This document shows positions 22,291 to 42,955 of a stretch of DNA of 64,000 nt, piece after piece. Within the stretch, counting starts at the first letter, position 1, and each line of letters starts with the position of its first letter. The stretch covers positions 7,998,001-8,062,000 of the forward strand of contig NC_063150.1 of NCBI RefSeq assembly GCF_020921035.1, read 5' to 3'. Source of the stretch: Rhodamnia argentea. Lineage: Eukaryota > Streptophyta > Magnoliopsida > Myrtales > Myrtaceae. The notes under the pieces were generated by a model. It ran no database searches and was not told where the DNA came from. It saw only the letters and a list, made by a program, of their open reading frames with translations. A program made the translations under genes and the position numbers.

Positions 22291-22533
22291 TTCGGACACT
22301 TTTCCTGTTATAATGTACCAATTTTATTATGTACCAAACTTGTTTGGTCCATCAACTTTCTCCACTCTTTGGGGGACATAAAAGACGCAAAAGATAGTAT
22401 CGCTTGTTATTTCACAATCATCCGCCACTGTCACTCATGTTTTTTTTTTTTTTTATGGTCAAAATGTCGTTCATGGTTGAGGTTGGCCTTCCGACCCGCC
22501 AAAAGGGTTCATTCCAATCCAGTTTGTGACCTC

Positions 22534-22542
22534 ACAAATGAC
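22534..22542. repeat. Left 9-bp target-site duplication of the MULE
   Basis: ACAAATGAC directly precedes the left terminal inverted repeat and is repeated exactly at 35187-35195. Nine bases is the usual Mutator-superfamily duplication. Confidence 0.93.
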
Positions 22543-22765
22543 GGGCTTTTTTCCAAACCAGGTGGACAAAACAAAGTAAATACCAAATCGGGTGTTGACT
22601 TTTTTTATTTACCAAATCAGGTGTCGCTCGGCGATCATAATGCCGAAGCGACACCCGCTCGGCAATTACATTTGCCGAGCGGCGGGGGCAAGATTGGGCC
22701 GCCACACGCTCGGCACTTATAGTGCCGAACAGGTGTGCCGCTCGGCACCAAAAATGCCGAGCGGC
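22543..22765 (+). repeat. Left terminal inverted repeat of the MULE
   Basis: It aligns by eye with the reverse complement of 34967-35186. Shared landmarks in the same order are taccaaatcggg, gttgactttttttattt, accaaatcaggtgtcgctcgg, gccgagcggcggg and ctcggcacttatagtgccga. Differences are scattered substitutions and small indels, so the two ends are related but not identical. Confidence 0.9.
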
Positions 22766-22830
22766 TCCCACTCGGCATTATGGATGCCGAACGGCCGCCG
22801 TTCGGCATTTTTGGTGCCGAGCGGGTGCCT
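22630..22830. repeat. Cluster of short CTCGGCA...TGCCGAG hairpins
   Basis: At least five near-palindromic units, each a (g/a/t)ctcggca or ttcggca arm, a spacer of about 3-8 bases and the complementary tgccgag(c), follow one another. The right end has the same kind of cluster at about 34935-35105. These could be transposase-binding or secondary-structure elements; function is inferred. Confidence 0.8.
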
Positions 22831-24252
22831 GATCCACCCCGCACCACCCCACACATTGGACACACAATGTAACATATGTTGGTGCTTTGGGACAAATTTT
22901 AGGGGGTGCAATTGTGCTGACAGTGGATGATATGGAAATATCCCCTGTTTACGGAAAACGTCTCTCTCACAGAGAGGGAATGATTCGAGAGTAAAAAGAC
23001 GAAAAGGGGGTCATTCCCGAGAAGTGAGCTTGGGTTGATATGTGAATGATGGAAGCTAAATGGGCAAAGGTAATTTTCGTATGTGCATGCATTTGGAGTG
23101 GGTCGGGGGTATCCTGGCACTCCAAAGGGCTAGGTGATTACGAAAATTCACGTGTAATTGACTAATCTTAGGGAACCAAACTCTTAGCTAGGGCTGAAGC
23201 TTGAATTCATCCGAACAAAAAAAAAAATCACGCGACAAACTAAGAAGTCTCATAAGCAATCGGCTGATTTAACAACCCGTGGATTAAGGGGATAGCGATT
23301 TCGGCGCGTCGCGAGAATTCTTATAATTATGTATGTGTATGTAGCCACCGATATCACACGAAAGCATATGATATTCATGCCTCATGTTTGAATGAGGAGG
23401 GGCGCAAAAAAATAAAAAAATAAAAAGGCATTCTCTTGTCGAATGAGACTCTCATCACTTGCACGAGCCTCCGAGAAACCAAGCAAAGGATTACCCAAAA
23501 AAAAAGGAAAAAGAAAAAAAAAGGTCATCAAGACGATTGGCTTTTGACTATGCATGAAAATCAAAGATGGTGCAGAAACTAAGATGCCTCTTAGGCTATT
23601 CAAAGAATGGCTTCTTGGAACATGCAATTTGCAATTTTTTATTTTATTTTAATCATGTTTTGTCAATCAATAGTTACCGAAGTGCTTTCTTGTGTAAGTG
23701 GAGCAAAAAAAACATGGCTGGTGAACAAACTGAAAAGTTCAATGTACATGATATTGAAGATATTAATTTACATCGAAAGGACATTAAGGCAGTCTTTTAT
23801 CTTTTTGGGGGGTTGGTCGAAGTTCATTTTAGTACTTGGAAAGAGGCAAATTTCGCGAGCCGATGTTGACTTTTTGAGTAGACCCGAAAGCTCATTAGGG
23901 TTCAAGTCATTGTCTAGCTTACGTGGATTGGAGTAATCTCGTATTAAACAACAGATCGGGGTGTGGAGCGATATAAGATGGATTCCGAATACGATGTTTG
24001 CTACGTTTTAGGAAGAATCTTGAGGAGATTAGTGACCGCAGAACGACTAGAACCGCTCTTCTTCCCACTTAAAATTGATTAGAAAGCGTAGGGTGGGTAG
24101 AACAAAATAGATGTTGTTAGAGAAATTGTTAGAGAAATGCTTTCAGTTGATGGTTGGAATATATGAAAGCGGGGACAAGAAAAGTCCCGAGGTAGATAGA
24201 CAATAATGATTTGGGGCTATTGAGGTCGTCTCTTTCCTCATCCCTTTTATGC
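22831..24252. other. Unassigned MULE interior, left part
   Basis: Small open frames on both strands (for example about 23567-23936, +) show no recognised motif and no convincing splice pattern. This may be further captured or degenerate sequence. Confidence 0.4.
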
Positions 24253-24680
24253 TCATGGTTTGAGCATTTTCTTATTTCTTTCATTCTTCACCCTCGTCCA
24301 CTTACGGTTCTTAGTCCTTCTATTCTTCTTCTTCTGCCCCGTGGGAGTAAAGCCTTCCCCATTCGTGTCGGGTTTTCCAATCTCGGGTTGACAATCCTCG
24401 CAGAACCAAAGAACGTCCCCATGGAAAACTACGGTCTCTAGGCAATAACTGAAAAACAGATAAAAAAAAATGAGGCCGACATTCCAAATTTTTAACAGCG
24501 AACATTCTCTTGCATGCATGCATACGAGAATGCACATGTATCATTACGTGATGTAATTATAGAGGGTGTGAGGGGCGAACTTACCGGTGGACAGCGTATG
24601 CCTTACGATCGTTACGGTAGATCAAAGTCTCCTCAAAACCAGTATCTCCACATTGGAGGCGGACAATCGCCCGCATGAAC
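24253..24680 (-). pseudogene. Captured PHD-finger gene fragment with one intron
   Basis: On the minus strand an upstream exon (about 24680-24585) encodes L-Q-C-G-D-T-G-F-E-E-T-L-I-Y followed by K-A-Y-A-V-H-R. A GT donor at 24584 and a TTTTTCAG acceptor next to 24448 join it, in matching phase, to an exon encoding Y-C-L-E-T-V-V ... W-F-C-E-D-C. Together they give the C-G-D-x-G-F ... A-V-H-R-Y-C-L ... W-F-C-E-D-C layout of a plant PHD-type zinc finger. Two cysteines expected between I-Y and K-A-Y are replaced by Arg, and I see no upstream start, so it looks non-functional. The open frame runs on through a Lys/Arg-rich tail to the stop at 24253. A captured host fragment is the simplest reading. 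Confidence 0.65.
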
Positions 24681-25125
24681 ATAAAATCGGGGTAGACCTC
24701 AAACCTTATTTGGATTTTTAGGCATTTAAAAATGTACGGCCTTTAAAACCGATCAACCTAATTCTCACAAAATGGAAACCAAAATTGTGATGGTTGTGAA
24801 AAACAGCGATAATGAATGAACCTTTACGAGAAATTAACGATGAAAAGTCTAGGACGGCCAGAGTATGCGTACCATTTCCTTAGCCGGATTCACCGCCACG
24901 AACGTAGAATCCCCGTCCTGGCCGTGGCGGGAGGGGTACTCGCCACGCTCGGCGGGTCGGTCTTGTTGGACGAGAGAATCCATCCTGTCCTTCCTTTTTT
25001 TCACGAAGCACTTAAGAATGAGAGAAAAATAACCGGGACTAACTTCGTTTTTGCGCTCCAACTTTGAATTCCTTCCCGTCCAATTTATATTGCGAGATTT
25101 GGGGGAGGCCCTCCCGGCTTTGCAG
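24681..25125. other. Unassigned MULE interior between PHD fragment and hairpin
   Basis: Overlapping short frames on both strands (24816-25067 +, 24849-25217 -) have no recognised family features. Part may be upstream sequence of the captured PHD gene. Confidence 0.35.
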
Positions 25126-25223
25126 CCCGTATTTGGGGGAGGGCCCCCCCGGCCGCGGCTCCCTGCGGGACCCGTGGGGTCTTGCGCAGGGAGCCGCGGC
25201 CGGGGGGCCCTCCCCAAATACGG
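25126..25223. repeat. Long GC-rich hairpin with arms of about 40 bp
   Basis: The left arm starts cccgtatttggggg and ends ggctccctgcg (to about 25167). The right arm (25184-25223) starts cgcagggagcc and ends ccccaaatacggg. The arms are inverse complements apart from one or two extra G/C bases in homopolymers. A GA-rich run follows directly. Confidence 0.85.
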
Positions 25224-25227
<4 letters not shown>

Positions 25228-25259
<32 letters not shown>

Positions 25260-25325
25260 GAGTGAGAGTGAGAGGTCATGTCACTTCAAATTTGAGAGAG
25301 TGAGAGAGAGAGAGAGAGTGAGAGG
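25228..25325. repeat. GA/GTGA microsatellite
   Basis: A (GA)n run passes into gtgaga repeats, is interrupted by 'ggtcatgtcacttcaaatt', and resumes as gagagtgagagagaga. The interrupting word ggtcatgt recurs at about 25330. Confidence 0.8.
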
Positions 25326-25369
25326 GAGAGGTCATGTTACATTATTGGCACGGAACCGAGTACGTGGTT

Positions 25370-25570
25370 TGGGGGGCCTCCCTCAACCAAGTACGTTGCG
25401 GTGCCAATAATGGCACCGCATGAAAAAAAATAAAGAAAAAAAAGCAGTGCGTTGCGGTGCCAATAATGGCACTGCAGACTTATGGGAGGCCCGCCCTACA
25501 CCTTATTGTGTGCGGACGTAGCTTCTATTGCGTCTGCACACGGGGCGTTGCGGCGCCATTCACGGGTTTG
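25370..25570. repeat. Copies of the CCAATAATGGC palindromic module downstream of the transposase
   Basis: Two copies of gttgcggtgccaataatggcac and one 'gcggcgccattcacggg' copy occur here. The same modules fill 29.2-29.7 kb on the other side of the transposase gene, with 'tgcggcgcc(a)ttcacggg' in the same orientation at about 29683. Confidence 0.75.
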
Positions 25571-25929
25571 ATTAATTTAGTTTGAATTATTCTCTTTTTG
25601 CATTTGAAAAGTTCATGATGCCCAAGTTTTTTGGCTCCATACGAGGTGGGAAGGGATACTCCGACGACGTGTATGTGTGCAATTACATGTAGTAATTATA
25701 TGTGCACAAAGTAGGAAACTATTGGCCGTAGATTAATTAAGTAATTATATGTACACATAAATGATGAAATATCGCGCAATTGAGATATGGTAATGTCACA
25801 AAAAAAAAATTACATATGTAATATAAAAATCAACTAAAAAAATGAACGTAATAAATATGATCGTTGAGCGGTATTATAACATTACAAAAGTGTCAGCAAA
25901 CTATTTTACATAATTGGCACAACCGGCAT

Positions 25930-28581
25930 CTAATCCCGGGCCGATCTGTGCGCACATGTTTGCCTGTTGTGCCCTGATTTCCCGCAATTCGTGCAATGGT
26001 TACGCGAATCGCCATCGCTCGGGGTTCTCCAGTCCATCTCATTACGTATCCGAGATGCACGAGGCCTTCCTTTCTTCCTAATACGCCTTGGATCCGGAAC
26101 TAATGGCAACTCATTAGCTTTATCCCGGTAGTCATGATGCCCTAACGGATGAAACATGTACCGATAGCATCGAAGGGTTTTGTCCAACGTATAGCATTCA
26201 TCTACGAACCCAGTGTAATCAATTGCATGTAGTTGGCATACTGCAATTACGTGGGAACAAGGAATTTTCAACTGTTCAAATTTCCCACATGTGCATGTTC
26301 GCTCGTGTAGATGCACTTTGTATTTGTTGCCCCCAGATCCTCTAGTTCTATGACGTGCAGTTTTCACTTCGTAAATCCCTCTTTCAGAGTCGAAACATCT
26401 TACCCGATGCCTCTTTGCCTTTTCGCTATTTTTGTGGAGCGTTTCACCCGCAATTTGCGTAAATTGCCATTGGTTGGCCTTCTGCATTGTGTACATCGTT
26501 CTCCTCGTGTCAAAATAATGAGACAACTGGTAAAATATCTTTTCCACCATGGCTGTTATTGGCAAACCACGAACGGGTTTCAGCATCCCGTTGACCGATT
26601 CAACCAAATTTGTGGTCATCGACCCATATCTCTTCCCTCCATCATAAGCCTTTGTCCATTTCTCCCTTGGAATCTGATCACACCATTCCTTTGTGGGTTG
26701 ATCGACCTCCCTAATTCGGCTCATGATGAAATCGAACTTCCGTCGTTGATTCGCGTAAGCTGCACATTACAACAATAATCGGTACAATACATTATAGTAA
26801 AATTTTGTAAAAAGTTTTGAGGTGGGAATTCACAAAATTTAACATTTACCTGCCATTTGAACATGTTTTATCCCGTCGGCATTTTTGAAATATTTTTTGT
26901 AGTTGCTGACAATATGAAGAATGCAATATCTATGGTGGGCATGTGGAGGACGCCACCGTGCTGTCTGCATTGCTTGTTGAATCCCGATATGTCTGTCTGA
27001 TATCACACAAATATCATCCCTTACGGTGACATATCTCCGCAGCATATTCATAAACCACCGCCAGTTGTCAACATTTTCCCTATCAACCACAGCAAATGCC
27101 AATGGGAAATTATGATTATTCCCATCAAGTGAGGCCGCACAAAGGAGCGTTCCTCGGTATTTTCCATACAAGAAAGTACCGTCGACAAATATAACAGGCC
27201 GACAACTTTTGAAACCTTCAATTGTTTGCCTAAAAGTCCAAAACATGCGGTCGAAAACCGTGCGGCTCTCATCCTCGGCCATGCGTTCCTCGATCACGAA
27301 ATGAGAACCTGGATTCTCTTTCATCATTGCGTTCATGTACCTCATCAACTTACCATATGACTCATCCCATCCGCCAAATTCTTTGGCAATCGCCAATTGT
27401 TTGGCATTCCAGATTTTACGGTAAGTAGGTTGGAAGTTAAGCTTGTCTTGAATCTCCGCCATGATCGCCTTGATTTTGATATCCGGTTGGGCGGAGACCA
27501 TTTGTTGGATGAAGCTGCATATGTACATTTGATCGAGGTGCGGATGATCTGCAGATGCATGTATATTCTTGCATGTATGTGGGCCATTATACTTACTTAT
27601 TTTCCAAAACATGCCACCCACTTTTGTGATCGCGCGGAGCCTCCGGCCACATGGTCCATTCGGATTACCACACTTGATGACATATTCTCTCTTCTTCGTG
27701 GTATCATAGTAAAACCTATGATTTCTTCTCATTGAGTACTCCTTGGCGACTAGTCGTACCGCATCCCGTGATGGAAAAAGTCGCCCAACAGCAAATTCTT
27801 TCGACGGATCAAATACCGTGCCGCCCGGCTTTGCTCTTGTATCGTCTTGCATCATATCAAAATCGATCTCCGAGTAGGGCGGTGGATGTACCAATGGCTG
27901 AATGGGGTTACTATCTTGCGTGTTATAGTAACTCTCCATATTGGCAGATTCAACGGCTTCAACATCACTATCATCACTGTCCATCCAACTATCATCGTCT
28001 TCATCGCTAGCCTCATCATGGTCATTATCATCATTATCACCATCATCATCATTATTATGGTTATTATCATCGGACTCACCCGGTCGATTACGCACAATGA
28101 CATCTTGTCCCGCTTGTTCTTCTTCTTCTGCTCCTTCTTGTTCTTCTTCTTCTCCTTCTTGTTCTTCTTCTTCTGCTCCTTCTTGTTCTTCTTCTTCTTC
28201 ACAAACATTGGACCATTCCCCCGTATGATAATCATGTATCACCTGGTGTTCATCTACAATGACATAAAACACTAGAAACCCCATTTCAATGATCTGATTG
28301 GCAAATTGCTGGATCATCCGAACAGTATTATCATCACGCACGTCCATTATATCATACACGACAAACCCTTGTGTGACATTTAGGCATCTATAGATGATGC
28401 TATGAATATACTGATTTCCGGTAATATTCAACGCGCTCTCAATCGTAGCACGTAATGCATCTAATGTCCATATGTTTGCAAACGCGAACCGGATGGATTC
28501 TCCGCCTTCGTAATCAGCTCCATAATCTTTTTGCACTATTCTACCTCCCCAAGGCAAAATCGCAACAGATATAGACGCCAT
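25930..28581 (-). CDS. MURA-like (Mutator) transposase, 853 aa, two exons, intact
   Basis: Exons on the minus strand are 28581-26850 and 26759-25930 (intron 88 bp, GT-AG), 2562 nt in frame without internal stops. Residues 128-200 are a low-complexity Glu then Asp tract. About 255-338 form a MudR-type DNA-binding region with Cys pairs and a final H-T-C. About 455-560 are the MULE catalytic core: Asp467 in VDGTF, Asp529 in ISDRH, and a likely third acidic residue Glu631 in N-L-V-E-S-V-N. Residues 733-747 are a SWIM zinc finger (C-x-C-x9-C-x-H). Residues 833-846 are a C-x2-C-x4-H-x4-C zinc knuckle. The protein would bind the element ends and catalyse cut-and-paste in the nucleus. Intactness suggests recent or possible activity, or capacity to mobilise relatives. 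Confidence 0.93.
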
Positions 28582-29199
28582 TACGCTAAAGAAATTATAA
28601 ATTATTTGGCGGCTACATTTTACGAAACATTACAACAACCAATATATCAAATGAAATAAACATCCTTCTATAGCCATAAAAATTCTGCTAAAGAAATGTT
28701 TACAAAATTAAAATTCAATGAATTTTAAATATTGTAATTATTTCACGTATAAATAACAATCCAAAAAAATAAATCTATACTTGAGAAACTGTAAAAAATA
28801 GGTACAACAAAATTAACCTCGAAATATCGATGGAGAGCACGTGCCGAATGAATATTTCTTAACTCCCAAGACAATGCACCGAGCAACAACGTTGGCTTGG
28901 GACAAAATCACAACTTCTGGGGAAAAAAATTTCAGAAATTAATTTCAATATGACGTAGATATTAATAAAAAATATAAAAAACACACACTGTAATATACAC
29001 TTACTGAAGCAACAGAGAGGGCAAAAATTTCTAAGCCCGGGCAACCGAGAGGGTGTTAGTGTGAAATAGAGGAAGTGCGAGAATTGAAACACGAGAAAGG
29101 AAAAGTGCAAGAGTGATATGAGAATGCGAGAGTAAGAGAAAGGGGAGCTTTAGTCGTGCTTTAAACACGATCGAAGAGAGGCTGTAGCACCCGTGAAGG
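28582..29199. other. Leader/promoter side of the transposase gene
   Basis: An AT-rich stretch with no supported coding sequence. By position it should hold the transposase 5' leader and core promoter, on the minus strand. A few GT/AG-like sites could allow a leader intron but none can be confirmed. Confidence 0.4.
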
Positions 29200-29705
29200 A
29201 GGTAGGACGGCAATAATGACGTTGCAAAAATAGGGGGTGGGAGGCACCCCTCCTACGGCCACAATAATGGCGCAGGGGAGGGCCCCCCATTTCCGGCGCT
29301 ATTAGCGCCGGAAATGGGGGCCCTCCCCACTCCCTAGGGCCGCAGCCCATGCTTGCGCCCTGGGGGCCCTCCCCTCCCTACCCCTGCAGCGCCATAATGG
29401 CGCTGCGGGGGATGGGGTGGCCGGCCCCCCCCCTCCTGCCCGCTGCTGCGCCGCCTTGGGCGCCGGAGCGCGAGGCCCCGCTCGGCAGCCATTATGGCGC
29501 CGCAGAGGTAGGGGGAGGGCCCCCCTAGGCTGCAGCATGGCGCGCAGCCCTAGGGAGTGGGTTGCCCCCCACCCCCTAATCTTGCGGCGCCAATAATGGC
29601 GCTGCAGGCCATAAGGGGAGGGGGCTGCCCCTCCACATGAGCTGCAGCGCCAATAATGGTACTGCGGCCATGGGGGGCGTCTGCGGCGCCTTCACGGGCG
29701 TTGCA
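29200..29705. repeat. Array of GC-rich palindromic modules between two divergent genes
   Basis: At least six units of the type GC(A/G)GCGCC(A)ATAATGGCGCTGC are spaced by G/C-rich text such as gggagggccccc. The unit at about 29387-29407 is a palindrome about a single base. The block lies between the transposase (-) and the mobile-domain gene (+), so it may act as a shared promoter, replication or transposase-binding region. Function is inferred. Confidence 0.75.
29275..29328. repeat. Perfect GC-rich hairpin, arms about 25 bp
   Basis: The left arm ggggagggcccccc... ggcgct and right arm agcgccgg ... ccctcccc are inverse complements (one extra C), with the loop 'att'. It lies at one edge of the module array. 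Confidence 0.85.
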
Positions 29706-29859
29706 GAGTGTCTTTCAGCTCTGCTTTTTTAAGTAGAGGCGAGTGCTCTCATTTCTCATCATCGACTATATTTCTTCGATTGATTACTCAACTCTCGTGC
29801 TCTTCCTCGATTACTTACTGAAGTTACGAAATTTTAGCATTCTTCACAATTACGTTGAA

Positions 29860-32128
29860 ATGGCACGGAGGAGTCACATTCAGCCGGGGCCCGAGAATGA
29901 TTCACTACTTAGTGGACGGGCGCGACACGGATCACAAGCTTTATGGGACACCGAGGTAATTGCGGAATTTAGCATGTTAACTGTCATTTGTCACGACATT
30001 ATGAAAATAGTCACTAATAGTTGATGTGACAATTTTGCGGATACCCGCAACCTGCAGGTTCTTAGATGTCAAAGAGCGGCGCAACACGTAGGTGAACTTG
30101 ATCCGTGAATACTCCCTTATCCGCAAGATTCGGGATTTTACGGTGTTTATAAAATGGGGTTTGTCCGGCTTGATTGGCATTTGATTACGGCATTGGTCGA
30201 GCGATGGAGGCCCGAGACCCATACTTTTCATATCTTTGGAAGGTGAAGTTACGATCACGGCTGCAGGACATTGCGATGATTACGGGGCTTCCTATCGAGG
30301 GACTTGTACATTCTTGGCCCTCCGATTGGAATTGGGGCAATCTATGTGATCATCCGCTTGGTGCTCGGCCACCTCAATCGCGCGGCACACAAATAAATTT
30401 AAGATGGTTGAGTGAAAACTTTCACCATCTTCCGGAAGATGCCGATGAGGACACTGTACTATATCATGCTAGGGCATTCGTTCTTCGCTTGATTGGAGGA
30501 TATATTTTCGCGGACAAATCGGGTGCTCGAGTTAGTTTGCTATTTCTCCCACTATTAACGAACATCGAGGCCCCTACACAGTACGGTTGGGGTTCAGAAG
30601 CACTAGCATGGTTGTATCGGGAGCTATGCCGTGCAACCGATCCAAACGCGAGGCAAATGGGCGGTGCCCTACATGTACTCCAGATTTGGGTGTGGGAACG
30701 TTTCAAATGTGTCTCCCCTGGTCCGACTTCCATTGCTCCTTTCCCGGATGCACCTTTCGGTAGTCGGTATGTCATGTATTGCCTTTTTTCATTTCGTGCG
30801 TCATTAATTTTTTTGCAGCGCGTATAGTACATGAAATCTAAAGTCGTATGTTTCTCAAGCTTGAGTCGAGGCCGAACTACAACCGACGTCCCCACGCATC
30901 TTGTGACACATCTGCGCTACCAATTTGATCGAATGGGGACCGATGATGTAAGTAATGATAGCAACGAGTGGGTTTAATATAATGTTAATCTTTAAATTTA
31001 GCTTTGGTGTAATTTGATATATTTCATTACGATAACGGATTATTTGGGAGCCGTATGACGAAATTGAAGAAGATGTACCAGATTCTTGCTTTCACGGACA
31101 AAACTATTGGAGGGCGAAAGTCCCACTCATCCGTCCTTTGGATAGTTGAGTGGCACTATCCGCACCGTGTACTTCGGCGGTTTCGGTTGCGGCAGCCAAT
31201 ACCTAAGAATCCTCACGATCATAGTGCCTTGCATGGTCTTGATAACACGCCACCCAAGGACCGATTGGGAGAATAAGCACGGACGGTGGATCGATTTGTG
31301 GAAAGGACGTGTCGAACGTATAGTGCGGGGTAGACATTCAACGGAAACACTCCACTTTCATTCCGGATATATGGAGTGGTTTCGTCGACATACAAGGAAG
31401 TTGATTTCTGTTGCGGGAGCTGCAATGGGTTCAACGGTTCGTGCATTTTAATTTCAATTTATTTCACTACTTATTTTAAGTAACATAAATTATTGATATA
31501 TTGATAACTTTTGTTAATTTTAATATCATTACTAGGGTGACGGGGTTGAGCAGATCGTACATATCATGGATTCGGTCGGTCCATCTCCTCAGGCTTGGGA
31601 AAAAGTAAGGACAATAGCTAGGGCAATGTTATATGCCCGGAATGAGGAACGGCGGCTAACAATGATGCCAGCACCTCAACCAGCAACTACGGCAACACCC
31701 GTTGGGCCGGACGAGGAGGATGACCCCCCCGAGACTGTTCACCCAACCCGGAGAAGTCCTCGAGCTGATACATATGATGATGTCGTCCCGTATTCCATGG
31801 AATATCATACAACGGATTTTGCTCCCGAGTTCACTCCGGGGTTCAGCCAACATTTCGATGCGGGGTTCACCCGGTTCGCCGGAACATTTGATGATCAACA
31901 TCCGTGAGACTCGGCTAGTTCTCCTTCGAGTATGGACCCGATTTCTCTCATTCTTATCCAGTCCCTCCTACGGAAGGGTATGACATATTTTCACAAGATA
32001 TGCCTTCGTCATCGAGACATCCTACTCGGTCGGACCCTCGTTCTCGTCGGTATGACACTAGGCTTCCCGATCAACGGAGACAACCTCATTGCGGAACAGG
32101 AGGTCATGTAGGAAGACGACATCGTTAG
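29860..32128 (+). pseudogene. Plant mobile domain (PMD, MAIN-like) gene, decayed
   Basis: Exon-like blocks at 29860-29955, from 30058 to about 30766, about 30820-30950, about 31040-31440 and 31536-32128 spell a PMD protein. Recognisable stretches are F-Y-G-V-Y-K-M-G-F-V-R-L-D-W-H-L-I-T-A-L-V-E-R-W, D-I-A-M-I-T-G-L-P-I-E-G, and N-P-H-D-H-S-A-L-H-G-L-D. PMD proteins descend from transposons and include MAIN/MAIL genes. Disabling changes are an in-frame TGA at 30106-30108 after D-P (CGA to TGA is the likely mutation), two compensating one-base shifts at about 30236-30262, a shift near 31136, another near 31275, and a shift near 31905. Splice sites are mostly preserved. It is divergent from the intact transposase and was probably a second gene of the element. 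Confidence 0.85.
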
Positions 32129-33741
32129 TACATGTAATTGCAATTAACTTGATATCTATTATGAAGATTTCGTGTTTTTGTATATCTTATGCAATTATAT
32201 GTCGTGTTTCGACACGTATCCATTTTTATTTATTTGAAGAAAACACCAAAAAATTAAAAATAAAAAACCACGGAAACGGTGCCCATGGTAACACAAATAC
32301 ACAATTTTTTTGTTCATCACTAAAACCTTAAAAATTGACCTACCACCAAAAACCGTAAACCCTGTGCATCAAAAGGGGATGGTGGAAGAAAAGCATTAGA
32401 TGGAGCAATTTTAAAACACTAATCTCCATTCAAGAAGATCATATAATTATTCAAGAAGATCATATGATTATTGGAGAAGCTACTTTTCTACGTTTCTCCC
32501 CGGTTTAAACACACGTCAGAAGTTTTCCAACATGCAAATTTCATGTTCACTTTTACCCTGGCAAAAGTACACTTTTAGTGTCATAGTTGTGTATGAAGAT
32601 TACTTTAGTGCAAAAAATTTCAAACGGATTACTTTAATACTAAGTCGGAGACAACGGTTTGGTACCTCCGGCAAAAAATTTTCGGTCAAAATTAATACGT
32701 GGCTTGAGCATTTTCTCCTTTTAAATTTCATCCAAAAGGAGCTTTTGGTGATCAAGTTAGTAAATCTTGTGGAAAATTATGTGAATTCTGTCATCAGATT
32801 GTCTCGCGATGAATTGTGAGGACTATAAAGAAGTGACAGTATTTTAATGACTCAAGTGTAGTTGTAATTTTCGTTTTGTCACTTGATTAATGGTGAATCA
32901 TGTGCTGCTCCTCATGGAGTATGTGTCGCCAATCGGATCGCGTAAATCCAATGTCCAATATATTTTCTTGTTTTTTTATTATTGTGTTCGATTGCTTTTT
33001 TTTTTTTTCCTTTTTTTGAAACAACCGTATGAATAGCTTCAAATTAACTTGATCAGCGGAAAAAGAAATGAACTCTCATTTTTGCAGAGATATTATCAGT
33101 CCGTATTTCCTTTAAAGTAGTATATATATATATATATAGGGGGTCAACCCTCAAAAGATTCTATGCATGTTTCTATCCAAGATGAAATCACCGATCCAAC
33201 TACCCCGGCGAAGTCAAATTCCTATTTTGTTTCCCAATCAATGTTCGAGATAATTTTGATGAAATGTCCTGATACAATTTATCCTTAAAAAAAATTATGA
33301 ATCCGGTCGATTCGTTCTCTCATAATTATTCCAAAAAGAGCTAAAGACAACATATCGTGCAGCCACATATATGAGCTCAACTTGCATCTTTCCAGCAACT
33401 TCATAGGATGAATGCTTTGACCAATAAAAATAATAAATTAAAAAAACCAATCGATCCCTTAAAAAAAATATAATGCCTACTCATATAAACATTGGTAGAT
33501 GATAGTTCAAAGTAACTTACAAAATGCATAGAGAGTGTACAGATATACTAAGTAACTTACTAGAGCAAAGAGGGAAAATCCTTAGCCGGAAAGTTACAAC
33601 CGTCAAGTTACGCCGCACCATCTTGTGTCCAGTGCTTCTTGTGAATTGGTATCACAATTTGCATACAAATAATTTTGACTCATCATCAATATATTTGCAA
33701 GTAACGCTCTCTTATATTTGATTCAACGATAACAATTGCAG
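32129..33741. other. Unassigned MULE interior, right part
   Basis: No family is recognised. A TA microsatellite lies at about 33120-33138. The last part (about 33650-33741) ends in a good 3' splice site (ttgcag) and probably is the captured intron of the Bet v 1 piece. Confidence 0.4.
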
Positions 33742-34037
33742 CTAGCCATTTCAAGTACGCGAAACACGGGGTTGGCGCTCCGGACCGGGACAAACTCACA
33801 TACAGCTACGATTGGATCGAGGGCGACGCCTTGATGAACATATTCGAGAAGATCTCGTATGACATCGAGATCGAGGCCAACCCCGAGGGAGGGTCCATAT
33901 GCAAGAACAGAAGCAAGTACTACGCCACTGGTAACATTCGGTTCACTGAGGAGCAAATCAACGAAGGCAAGGAGAAGGTCTTGGGCTTGTTCAACACTCT
34001 TGAGGGTTATCTCTAGGCCAACCGTAATGCTTGCTAA
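33742..34037 (+). pseudogene. Captured last exon of a Bet v 1/PR-10-type gene
   Basis: After a ttgcag acceptor at 33736-33741 the frame encodes H-F-K-Y-A-K-H, W-I-E-G-D-A-L-M, I-F-E-K-I-S-Y-D-I-E-I-E, G-G-S-I-C-K and E-E-Q-I-N-E-G-K-E-K-V-L-G-L-F. These are the second-half landmarks of Bet v 1/PR-10 ligand-binding proteins, from the usual single-intron position onward. A TAG at 34014-34016 precedes the expected end (A-N-R-N-A-C then TAA at 34035-34037), so the reading is slightly shortened. No first exon is found upstream. Text after the stop with aataaataaa near 34247 suggests the 3' UTR came along. It lies wholly between the element ends, so transduplication is the simplest explanation; an older resident gene fragment is the alternative. 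Confidence 0.75.
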
Positions 34038-34930
34038 GAATGTCAAACGTATGAGGTGATCACCGTCTATTACCACAAGATTGTCGATCTTATCATGATG
34101 TCTCTCCTAAAGGGTGTGTGTCTCTTCATGGTTGTTCATTTTTAATCTTGGGTTTATATTCAGATTAAGGAGCCTCGGGCCCGCCCTGTAGCAAGTCTCC
34201 GAGATCGTTCCGTTGTTTTCAGTATTTTGAGAATGGTGTGATGTCAATAAATAAATACGAAGGAAATCCTCTTTCTATTTTCTTAGTATGCGCGTAATTT
34301 ATTATTCCTTAATTTGATACGTGAAAACTAAGGAGGGAAAACGTCAACCGTCAAAAAGCAACATGCTCTTTATTTCTAAAATAATTGGTGTCCGTACTAT
34401 CATTATTTGGATAGTATATGACACCTCAACTAACAATTTATTCTACAAAAGAATAAATCGTTAAGTACTTAGCTTACAAAGAACCGACTAGGTGTTTGAG
34501 GTCCCGTATGCTCGATACTTAAAACTCCAATTCGTTTGCACCTTCTTAATTACAATGTACTGAATAATCGTTATCAATTTCGTGATCAACCCAATTTGCC
34601 TACTTAATTAATTATGATTAATACATACTCTTCCAACAACTCTGTCATTTGGATCAAATGAAATTAGCGCATGCCATGCGAAGTCAATCCAATTATAGGC
34701 AATATGAAAATGATAGGAGTGTAGTGTTGTACATTTTACAATCTAATTCGTCCACAATTTGTAAAATGAAAACCCATTGACCATTTAGCCGATGCCTTTT
34801 TCTTCCCCAACCTTGACCGCTTTCATGTGTCGGATAAATTATTTCCTAATCATTCACTCTATAATACAAGTCCTGTTTCTACCATTGAACGAATCCAAAT
34901 ATATAATTATTTATGATTTCTTTTATTTCG
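34038..34930. other. MULE interior before the right end
   Basis: The first 220 bases look like the 3' UTR of the captured Bet v 1 gene. The rest is AT-rich with no recognised coding or repeat structure. Confidence 0.4.
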
Positions 34931-34966
34931 TGAAGCCGGTCGGCACTTATAGTGCCGAACGGATCG

Positions 34967-35186
34967 CCGATCGGCACTAATATCGCCGAGCGGCGATCCG
35001 TTCGGCACTATAAGTGCCGAGCGGATGGCGGGCCATGACTCGCCCCGCCGCTCGGCAGTGTGACTGCCGAGCCGGGTGTCGCTCGGCATTATGACTGCCG
35101 AGCGACACCTGATTTGGTAAATAAAAAAAGTCAACCCCCGATTTGGTAATTATTTTGTTTTTTACACCTGGTTTGGAAAAAAGCCC
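34967..35186 (-). repeat. Right terminal inverted repeat of the MULE
   Basis: Reverse complement of the left end, sharing the outermost 22 bases exactly and the ordered landmarks listed for the left repeat. A further hairpin of the same ctcggca type lies just inside, at about 34935-34962. The outermost 56 bases now also code the C-terminus of the aspartic-protease-like gene. Confidence 0.9.
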
Positions 35187-36555
35187 ACAAATGACCGTCT
35201 CCGTCCGTCGTGAAGTTGAAATTGGCACAGGCGGTCCCCTGCAACAGCACCGACGAACTAAACCCCAGCCTCATCGACTTGAGGTCGAACCGCAACAGGT
35301 TGTCCTCCATCCGGTGCCCTCCAATCGCAATCGCGGCCCGCGCCTCGGCCCCGCCGTCCACGAGTCCCAGGCACCACACATCCGTCTCCTTCCTCTTGAT
35401 CCTCACCATTGAATTCGCCCCCAGCACGCTCCGTAACACATCCTCGCTCTGCATCACCGGGTCGATCGCCGGCACGGCCGGGCCTGCGCGGGTGCCGGCC
35501 ACATATGTGGCAGAGTAACACAAGCTGAACGGCTTCACCGGCTGTGTCCCGGTGAGGTTGAATGCGGTGGAGGCCTCCTGTTCGAACGCCTCGGCGACGC
35601 CCCTGTAGATGGAGGTCCGGAGTGCGGTGTACGGCGGGACGGTGCCGATCAATGTCCCGCCGTAACCGCTCTCCGGGTCAATCGCCAGCAGAGTGGCGTT
35701 CGGCGGTACGGCCTTCCCGTTGACCACGACAGCTGTCACGCCGACGTAGTACTCGGCCGCCGGGCGCCGCGCGTATGTGATCACGGTGTCTCCCGGTGGG
35801 TTCGGGAGGATCGGCGTATAAGTGAGGCCCTTGGAGAGGTCTATCCCGGGGATGAAGTTGTACGGCCCGGCCGTGCCCACGAAGGTCACGCCGGAGGCTG
35901 TTCGCGAACCAGACAGGCACAACGCAAAGCACCGCGGCGGGGACGGGGCCTCGGTGACCTGCACGGGAAGGGAGACATTGGAGAACCCGAGTGCGGCGAG
36001 GCCGGAGGTCCCCTTTGGGAATTGGGCGAGCAGGTCGGGCTTGGCGCGGGAGAAGGGGAAGTCGGGAATGACGTCCACGCGCCCGAGGCTCGACCCGTCG
36101 GTGGAAGGGAGGCCGAGGGCGTCGAGAAGGGCGTTCTCAAGGCCCACCTTCCCGGTGAGGGGGTTCTCGGGGAAGTACTCGCAGGTGTCGTTGGAGCAGG
36201 TGGGGCCCGGTGGGCGGTCGTAGCGGTAGCCGCAGGCGAGGGAGTCGAGGGGGATGCAGACGGAGAAGTTGCAAGGGATGTGGCGGTAGGTGGCGGAGGA
36301 GTAGCCGCCGGAGTAGCGATCGACCCGGGAGAAGCGGCCGCCGAGGTGGAGGAGGAGGTCGAGGCGTTGGGGAGGGGTCCTCGGGTAAATGGAGAGGGTG
36401 TACCGGAGGGTTGTGTGGTCCTTTTGGATTGGCGAGAGTAAGAGCAAGGACCGCAGCGCCGGCGGAGGCGGCGCCACGGTGAAGAGCGAGAGTGTTGGAG
36501 GAGGAGCGAGAGAGATGATGGGGAGGAGGAAGAGGGCGAGGACGTGGAGTGGCAT
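35131..36555 (-). CDS. Aspartic-protease-like (xylanase inhibitor/EDGP type), 474 aa, 3' end rewritten by the MULE
   Basis: Intronless, as usual for this family. The start at 36555 is chosen because it gives a hydrophobic secretion signal (M-P-L-H-V-L-A-L-F-L-L-P); an upstream in-frame ATG at 36681 would add 42 residues lacking signal character. The fold has paired Cys motifs (C-N-F-S-V-C, C-S-N-D-T-C-E-Y-F-P) and the family segments P-Y-T-A-L-R-T-S-I-Y and C-A-N-F-N-F-T. The first catalytic Asp is replaced (L-L-L-H-L-G-G) and the second site is also changed (T-V-P-P-Y), so it is predicted to be a non-proteolytic, secreted inhibitor-like protein. Residues 1-456 are native. The last 18 (W-A-F-F-Q-T-R ... 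Q-I-G-G) come from the MULE end because the insertion split the original TGA. Confidence 0.85.
   Translation of the reverse strand: MPLHVLALFLLPIISLAPPPTLSLFTVAPPPPALRSLLLLSPIQKDHTTLRYTLSIYPRTPPQRLDLLLHLGGRFSRVDRYSGGYSSATYRHIPCNFSVCIPLDSLACGYRYDRPPGPTCSNDTCEYFPENPLTGKVGLENALLDALGLPSTDGSSLGRVDVIPDFPFSRAKPDLLAQFPKGTSGLAALGFSNVSLPVQVTEAPSPPRCFALCLSGSRTASGVTFVGTAGPYNFIPGIDLSKGLTYTPILPNPPGDTVITYARRPAAEYYVGVTAVVVNGKAVPPNATLLAIDPESGYGGTLIGTVPPYTALRTSIYRGVAEAFEQEASTAFNLTGTQPVKPFSLCYSATYVAGTRAGPAVPAIDPVMQSEDVLRSVLGANSMVRIKRKETDVWCLGLVDGGAEARAAIAIGGHRMEDNLLRFDLKSMRLGFSSSVLLQGTACANFNFTTDGDGHLWAFFQTRCKKQNNYQIGG
35187..35195. repeat. Right 9-bp target-site duplication of the MULE
   Basis: ACAAATGAC, an exact copy of 22534-22542. 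Read on the minus strand it contains the last codons of the original gene (CAT TTG) and the T of its stop codon. Confidence 0.93.
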
Positions 36556-42005: not shown

Positions 42006-42955
42006 ATGGATATCATTGGCCTTGGTGCACTTGAGTTGAGGCACAAATCGAAAGGCTTCACCTTCTTCGAACGTGATATCCGTCGTGTCGACGATGCAAA
42101 GAGCCTGAGGATGGGCCATATCACGTGGCTCCAGCGCATTGTGTACGGAACCACCGTGCTTAGCTTGATCCCACCGTGGCCAAGAGGGTCGAACTCTAGC
42201 ACGCGCCGCAAGAACGAAGCCGGCTCACCGTTGATGCAGATGGATCGGACGTCAATGCAGTAGTCGAGATTGTTCTTGGTCACGGGGTTCTTTAGCAATG
42301 AAGTGAAGGAGAGGAACTGTGTTACATCTCTACCCGGCGGCGGAAGCAAGTAAAGCGTCTCGTCTCAGAAAAAGCTTGCTCCCGGGGATGAAGAACTGCT
42401 CGGCAAGCAAATTGCGAACCGCTTGCTGACCGTGGTGGCTCCTATAGCCTTCTTGAATCGTGAGGGAAGAGAGAACGAACTGCACGAGAGGCTTGCCATT
42501 CCTGAAGATCCAGACGGGAAAGAACGAAACAACGATTCTGGAGCGCATGCGAGAAGGACGCCATTCGCGAAAATATTTGCTTTCCGGACACGGCCATCCG
42601 CCGAAGGAATCACCACGTCGTGGGCTGACAGATTCGATAACACACATGACTTGGGTTCGATGCTGTCACCGTACATGCGCATTATCGATCACCGGAGCTC
42701 GAGTTACTCTTACCATCGATTTGGAGCCTACTCGGATGAGCACAAGACTCGGGGATGAGGCCGGTGGCGTATTGCGGCGACGCATTGACGGGAGGCACGG
42801 GGAAGGAGAGGATCTTGCGGGTTGCAGTGACGTCATGAAAACGGGGACAAGAGGTCGACGACGAAGCCGCCGTCGTTCGGGCCGAGGGTGATGGAGTAGA
42901 GAGAAGTGGACGGGTCAAATGGGTGACGTTGGTGCCCGGTTGAGTTTGAGGATGA
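42006..42955 (-). pseudogene. Decayed aspartic-protease-like (xylanase inhibitor/EDGP) copy
   Basis: Minus-strand fragments in shifting frames match the same family as the gene at 35.1-36.6 kb: near the 5' end D-P-S-T-S-L-Y-S-I-T-L-G and G-G-F-V-V-D-L, then A-H-D-V-V-I-P-S-A-D-G-R, then R-F-A-I-C-L-P-S-S, then D-Y-C-I-D-V-R-S-I-C-I-N-G and T-V-V-P-Y-T. Stops and frameshifts occur at several points (for example a stop near 42690). The signal peptide and the C-terminal Cys-rich end are not found. Same strand and family suggest an old local duplicate. Confidence 0.8.

Follow-up and report, generated by a model that had tools for sequence, protein, structure and literature searches.

A Mutator-like element in the stop codon of a TAXi/EDGP-type gene of Rhodamnia argentea and its predicted 18-codon tail

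The TAXi/EDGP-type gene described here, of a defence type, runs on the minus strand to a TGA that lies inside the terminal repeat of a transposon, which raises the question of how the gene came by this end and what the added codons mean for the protein. We analysed the gene in its window (the whole stretch of DNA, 64,000 nucleotides long, C1:7998001-8062000, whose gene content points to plant nuclear DNA) and searched the genome assembly (346.66 Mb, 74 contigs). An initial annotation had proposed that the transposon inserted inside the stop codon and thereby gave the gene a new tail of 18 residues.

The junction in the stop codon

The following features define the present and the former end of the gene:
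35131..36555, minus strand: TAXi/EDGP-type gene (the host gene) in its present form, a single open frame of 474 codons plus TGA
35134..35187, minus strand: the 18 new codons, WAFFQTRCKKQNNYQIGG; the first codon, T/GG, is split between gene and element
35131..35133, minus strand: stop codon TGA of the present frame, within the terminal repeat
22532..22534, minus strand: ancestral stop codon TGA, preserved in the far copy of the site
22311..22531, minus strand: former 3′ flank or 3′ UTR, with an AATAAA about 205 nt in

Read on the minus strand, the gene ends in ...GGT CAT TTG and a single T, to which GG of the element is joined; the split codon is TGG. The frame thus passes from ...GHL through WAFFQTRCKKQNNYQIGG to the TGA at 35131-35133, and all native amino-acid codons of the gene are retained. 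Joining the two flanks by script with one copy of the 9-bp duplication gave ...CAT TTG TGA GGT..., a frame of 456 codons compared with 474 now. The ancestral stop is therefore read from the joined flanks of the assembly itself, and the far flank retains the whole ancestral TGA, because the duplication includes the T. The placement of the transposon within the stop codon proved exact to the base with regard to the ends, the perfect 9-bp duplication and the joined flanks. Likewise, the reading frame of the predicted 18-codon extension, up to the TGA inside the terminal repeat, was correctly given, and the distance of 12.6 kb to the original 3′ UTR agrees with the length of the element (12,644 bp).

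The restored TGA lies 7 residues past the FNFT motif, whereas the present end lies at 25. To place this end in its family, the host protein was compared with the genome, which gave 30 matches. C-terminal ends were compared at 21 paralogue loci, 12 of which stop 3-7 residues past an FNFT-type motif. Three others (L045, L056 and L063) continue 13 to 30 residues beyond it and in six the motif is absent, which indicates that the end of the TAXi/EDGP family is not rigid. The statement that the stop is restored at the expected end of the family nevertheless fits where most of the comparable paralogues stop.

The first AATAAA inside the element is found 259 nt from its right end, compared with about 205 nt in the old flank, and polyadenylation in the terminal repeat would thus be possible. 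A run of 15 A (gene sense) is located at 22440-22454, about 77 nt past the ancestral stop; together with the single open frame it allows the question of a retrocopy origin of the host gene to be asked. The 232 bp of old flank at the junction (duplication included) have one full match and no other in the same assembly among the 40 of 2347 candidates that were scored; past these 232 bp the old flank is a dispersed repeat. Nor was an empty paralogous site found in the same assembly, where the host gene has one full-length match and three short ones (65-71%). A tblastn search of prokaryotic and viral contig collections yielded no orthologue, which is what such collections would lead one to expect.

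The element and its relatives in the genome

The transposon comprises the following features:
22543..35186, no strand assigned: Mutator-like element, 12,644 bp, with terminal repeats and a 9-bp duplication; 15 two-ended copies in the genome
22543..22800, plus strand: left terminal inverted repeat (extent of the search query), with matches of 89-91% to the nine best other ends
34935..35186, minus strand: right terminal inverted repeat, sharing 83% identity with the left end across 252 bp
22534..22542, plus strand: target site duplication ACAAATGAC, left copy
35187..35195, plus strand: target site duplication ACAAATGAC, right copy, in the last codons of the TAXi/EDGP-type gene
26850..28581, minus strand: transposase exon 1 with the MULE domain PF10551 (E 3.3e-19; splice model)
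25930..26759, minus strand: transposase exon 2 with a SWIM zinc finger (E 2.3e-08) and a CCHC-like knuckle
30174..30827, plus strand: plant mobile domain (PMD) reading frame, PF10536 (E 3.9e-27)

Both tips of the element, at 22543 (plus strand) and 35186 (minus strand), carry the sequence GGGCTTTTTTCCAAACCAGGTG. With up to three mismatches allowed, it has two matches in the window, namely these tips, while the mean expected by chance is 0.00 (100 shuffles). The element is flanked on both sides by a perfect direct repeat of 9 bp, ACAAATGAC, which is within the 8-11 bp expected of target site duplications of Mutator-like elements. Its terminal inverted repeats are long: the outer 104 bp are 93% complementary, and over about 250 bp the value is approximately 83%. 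A transposase with a MULE domain and a zinc-binding region (PF10551, SWIM) is encoded within, and the spliced two-exon model is free of stops over 853 amino acids; the CCHC-like knuckle of exon 2 was recognised by eye and reaches only E 0.091 in Pfam. By these features, all read from the DNA, the 12.6-kb insert is a Mutator-like element. The PMD frame lies on the strand opposite to the MULE transposase. In addition, a fragment of Bet v 1 (PR-10) type is present at 33705-34013 (plus strand; Pfam E 2.7e-4, slightly below the gathering score), which is possibly a captured piece of a host gene. Rfam gave no match reaching the gathering threshold, and NCBIfam a single weak match far under its cut-off.

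The left terminal repeat has at least 72 matches in the genome, at least 40 of which extend to the outermost base of an element end; family counts are lower bounds, 40 of 144 candidates having been scored. By position these ends belong to at least 25 sites, made up of 15 two-ended copies and 10 single ends. All 15 two-ended copies are flanked by 9-bp duplications (nine perfect, five with one mismatch and one with two). As a control, 210 wrong pairings of the same flanks were compared, which showed a minimum of two mismatches and a mode of seven, with 161 pairings having six to eight. The copies with duplications demonstrate past mobility of the family. One of them (L017/L028, C1:10482276-10503561) is 21.3 kb long with a perfect 9-bp duplication, and presumably contains a nested insertion. 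Dating the insertion from the divergence of the two ends was considered and rejected, because the left end is only 83% identical to its own right end and 89-91% to other ends. Being nearer to other copies than to its own partner, it suggests that left and right ends differ family-wide.

We also listed open stretches in the flanks of 24 of the 25 sites (the single end at C4:11934506 was left out) and ran Pfam on 16 gene-like stretches (10 and 6, one given twice), so that junction counts are again lower bounds. At no fewer than six of the 24 sites the junction is reached by a frame that Pfam matches clearly: the TAXi/EDGP-type host gene, a sulfotransferase, a dynamin, a PPR, a DUF674 and a UDPGT frame. 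Weaker matches were seen at at least three more, a lectin-kinase type frame (E 0.0032 for the stretch at the junction, 1.8e-25 for the adjacent one), an ankyrin-like one (E 0.038) and a Band-7/flotillin-like one (E 0.002). The listing of open stretches, a method that introns and untranslated regions escape, showed no domain-matched frame at the junctions of the remaining sites. Of these nine frames only the TAXi/EDGP-type one is met at a coding end. The other eight junctions seem to lie within reading frames, although both halves are domain-matched for the sulfotransferase alone, where the copy L031/L016 (C4:12066354-12077457, two mismatches in the duplication) splits the coding sequence into parts covering profile positions 1-115 and 123-255.

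A gene that enters an end of this family in the same phase (phase 2) reads 17 codons plus one split codon in 37 of the 39 ends with sequence; in the ends L016 and L019 the phase-2 read-out stops after six. Phase 1 gives a short frame of 5-11 codons in 39 of 39 ends. Phase 0 could be followed in 30 ends, in which it is free of stops for 14-158 codons. At the copy L012 the weakly matched ankyrin-like frame reads into a closely similar peptide. Since the read-out is generic to the ends of the family, the tail did not evolve for the TAXi/EDGP-type gene. Judged from these ends, it would be a by-product of the insertion, being what the terminal repeat normally yields when read in phase 2.

The host gene and its constraint

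The host gene encodes TAXi_N (E 6.1e-22) and TAXi_C (E 1.9e-43) domains, both above the curated cut-off, and its best match among solved structures is carrot EDGP (3vla, E 1e-103). For a leave-one-out count we used seven sequences of the EDGP clade, two of which are joined halves. The host gene is changed at 47 of 154 columns that are invariant in the rest of the clade, compared with 3-10 of 110-117 for each of the six others. The Asp of the first DLG/DVG motif (D117, alignment number), invariant in the six others, is replaced by His. WVDC has lost its Trp and its Cys, and two other cysteines are missing as well; of the 12 EDGP cysteines nine are kept, while each of the six others has all 12. 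Two new cysteines are found elsewhere in the host protein, one of them in the predicted tail.

EDGP-type proteins are reported to have lost the catalytic Asp of the C-terminal half (PMC11313796). With the first DLG Asp changed to His in addition, neither catalytic Asp would remain in the host protein. It is possible, from the substitutions listed here, that the host gene has lost its function. In a wider set of eight sequences, however, the gene is no outlier: it departs at 8 of 48 columns, L046 at 8 of 48, L048 at 11 of 51, L039 at 12 of 52 (of which eleven are gaps, L039 being a half sequence) and the other four at 0-3. Its third codon positions are rich in GC (GC3 0.80), CpG is not depleted (observed/expected near 1.1) and the codon-phase composition is strong. 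The gene may thus represent a distinct lineage and not a dying gene. Where it departs from its clade, its residues tend to have codons richer in GC (29 cases, compared with 11 poorer and 7 equal), which is not the pattern of decay through cytosine deamination. At 42029-42616 on the minus strand, approximately 5.5 kb upstream of the start of the host gene, there is another TAXi-type fragment, interrupted by an internal stop (30% identity, E 3.4e-14); the host gene is thus placed beside a broken relative.

Origin of the tail and comparison with known systems

We regard it as very probable that a Mutator-like transposon entered the stop codon with a 9-bp duplication and that the gene is now predicted to read 18 codons of the terminal repeat, the site having been hit by luck in a possibly weakly constrained host. 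The right end of the inserted 12.6-kb element parts the first base of the TGA from the other two. Ribosomes would now read the split codon as TGG, followed by 17 codons of the terminal repeat, and stop at a TGA there, while the 3′ end of the transcript would be provided by the element in place of the old 3′ flank. The element probably landed there because the family often enters genes, coding sequence included; that it struck the stop codon itself would be luck. The insertion was perhaps tolerated because the host is a divergent TAXi/EDGP-type paralogue that is possibly weakly constrained.

Were the junction an assembly error or a rearrangement, the restored stop would be a coincidence. Such a coincidence is easily obtained, since a T followed by random DNA of the window gave an immediate stop in 0.217 of 20,000 draws. 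The restored stop, which the annotation had taken as independent confirmation of the insertion, is therefore present as claimed and weak when taken alone; we rejected it as strong stand-alone evidence because it arises by chance 22% of the time. The insertion model is better established by the duplication and the like copies of the family, and a perfect 9-bp duplication at the exact family ends, together with zero to two mismatches in 15 of 15 two-ended copies, leaves an assembly error or a rearrangement next to no chance. A weightier objection accepts the insertion and holds that the gene was by then a decaying, unexpressed paralogue, so that there would be no tailed protein and no consequence. 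The many changes at clade-invariant positions, the loss of the first DLG/DVG Asp, of the WVDC Trp and Cys and of two further Cys, and the broken fragment upstream all speak for it. On the other hand, the 456 pre-insertion codons are open and of strong codon-phase composition, CpG is not depleted, and in the set of eight L046 and L048 depart at least as much as the host gene. Because the host is no outlier there, we lowered this explanation from an even chance to somewhat less than that.

The terminal repeat itself could be thought of as a selected terminator, whose short phase-2 and phase-1 frames and AATAAA tidy up gene ends and soften genic damage. The recurrence of both frames in nearly all ends and the AATAAA 259 nt inside the right end of the present copy are what such a terminator would look like, but phase 0 remains open for up to 158 codons in the ends that could be followed, and transposase binding alone is expected to conserve element ends. 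We hold selection of this kind to be very unlikely. Hardly any more credible is the idea that a gene-seeking MULE family carries in its ends a conserved portable tail, AFFQTRxxKQxxYQxxx, which is grafted onto proteins whenever it lands in frame, and which here would have been joined to the last residue of a secreted-type protein, complete in all else, to serve now in a functional product.

The insertion into the stop codon, which remains our preferred explanation, can be compared with published systems. MULE insertion in or near genes has long been known (PMC6446971); what sets the present copy apart from other plant MULEs is its exact position inside the stop codon and the PMD frame and Bet v 1-like fragment that it has aboard. 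In yeast and fly, proteins are documented to have gained tails when their stop codons were lost (PMC4494051). There, as here, DNA that had not been coding adds a short tail to a coding sequence; those cases arose by point mutation or indel and were studied with outgroups and polymorphism, whereas the present one is due to a 12.6-kb transposon and is read from the joined flanks of one assembly. In wheat, the element Mariam lies in exon 6 of a gene and alters the end of the protein from within the coding sequence (PMC6824096). It is alike in that the new stop and the changed C-terminus of a plant protein come from an element in the coding sequence, and in that roughly half of its intact insertions have 9-bp duplications. 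Mariam, however, is 307 bp long, has no terminal inverted repeats and shortens the protein, while no native residue is lost here. With the EDGP, basic 7S globulin and TAXI family (PMC11313796) the host gene has TAXi_N and TAXi_C in common, and differs in the His in place of the first DLG Asp and in the three of 12 EDGP cysteines that are absent. A partial search of the literature turned up no published case of a stop codon that holds a Mutator element.

The event is a well-supported but ordinary kind of insertion. As MULEs are known to insert into genes, and proteins to gain tails when a stop is lost, it is a clean new instance that leaves the general view unchanged. Its value is that of a very clean single-event case, in which a DNA transposon lengthens a predicted protein, no native residue is removed and the ancestral stop is still legible on the far side. 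Since its copies occupy at least 25 sites and several of their junctions fall in reading frames, the family would allow us to ask how frequently tails are read from the ends of such elements.
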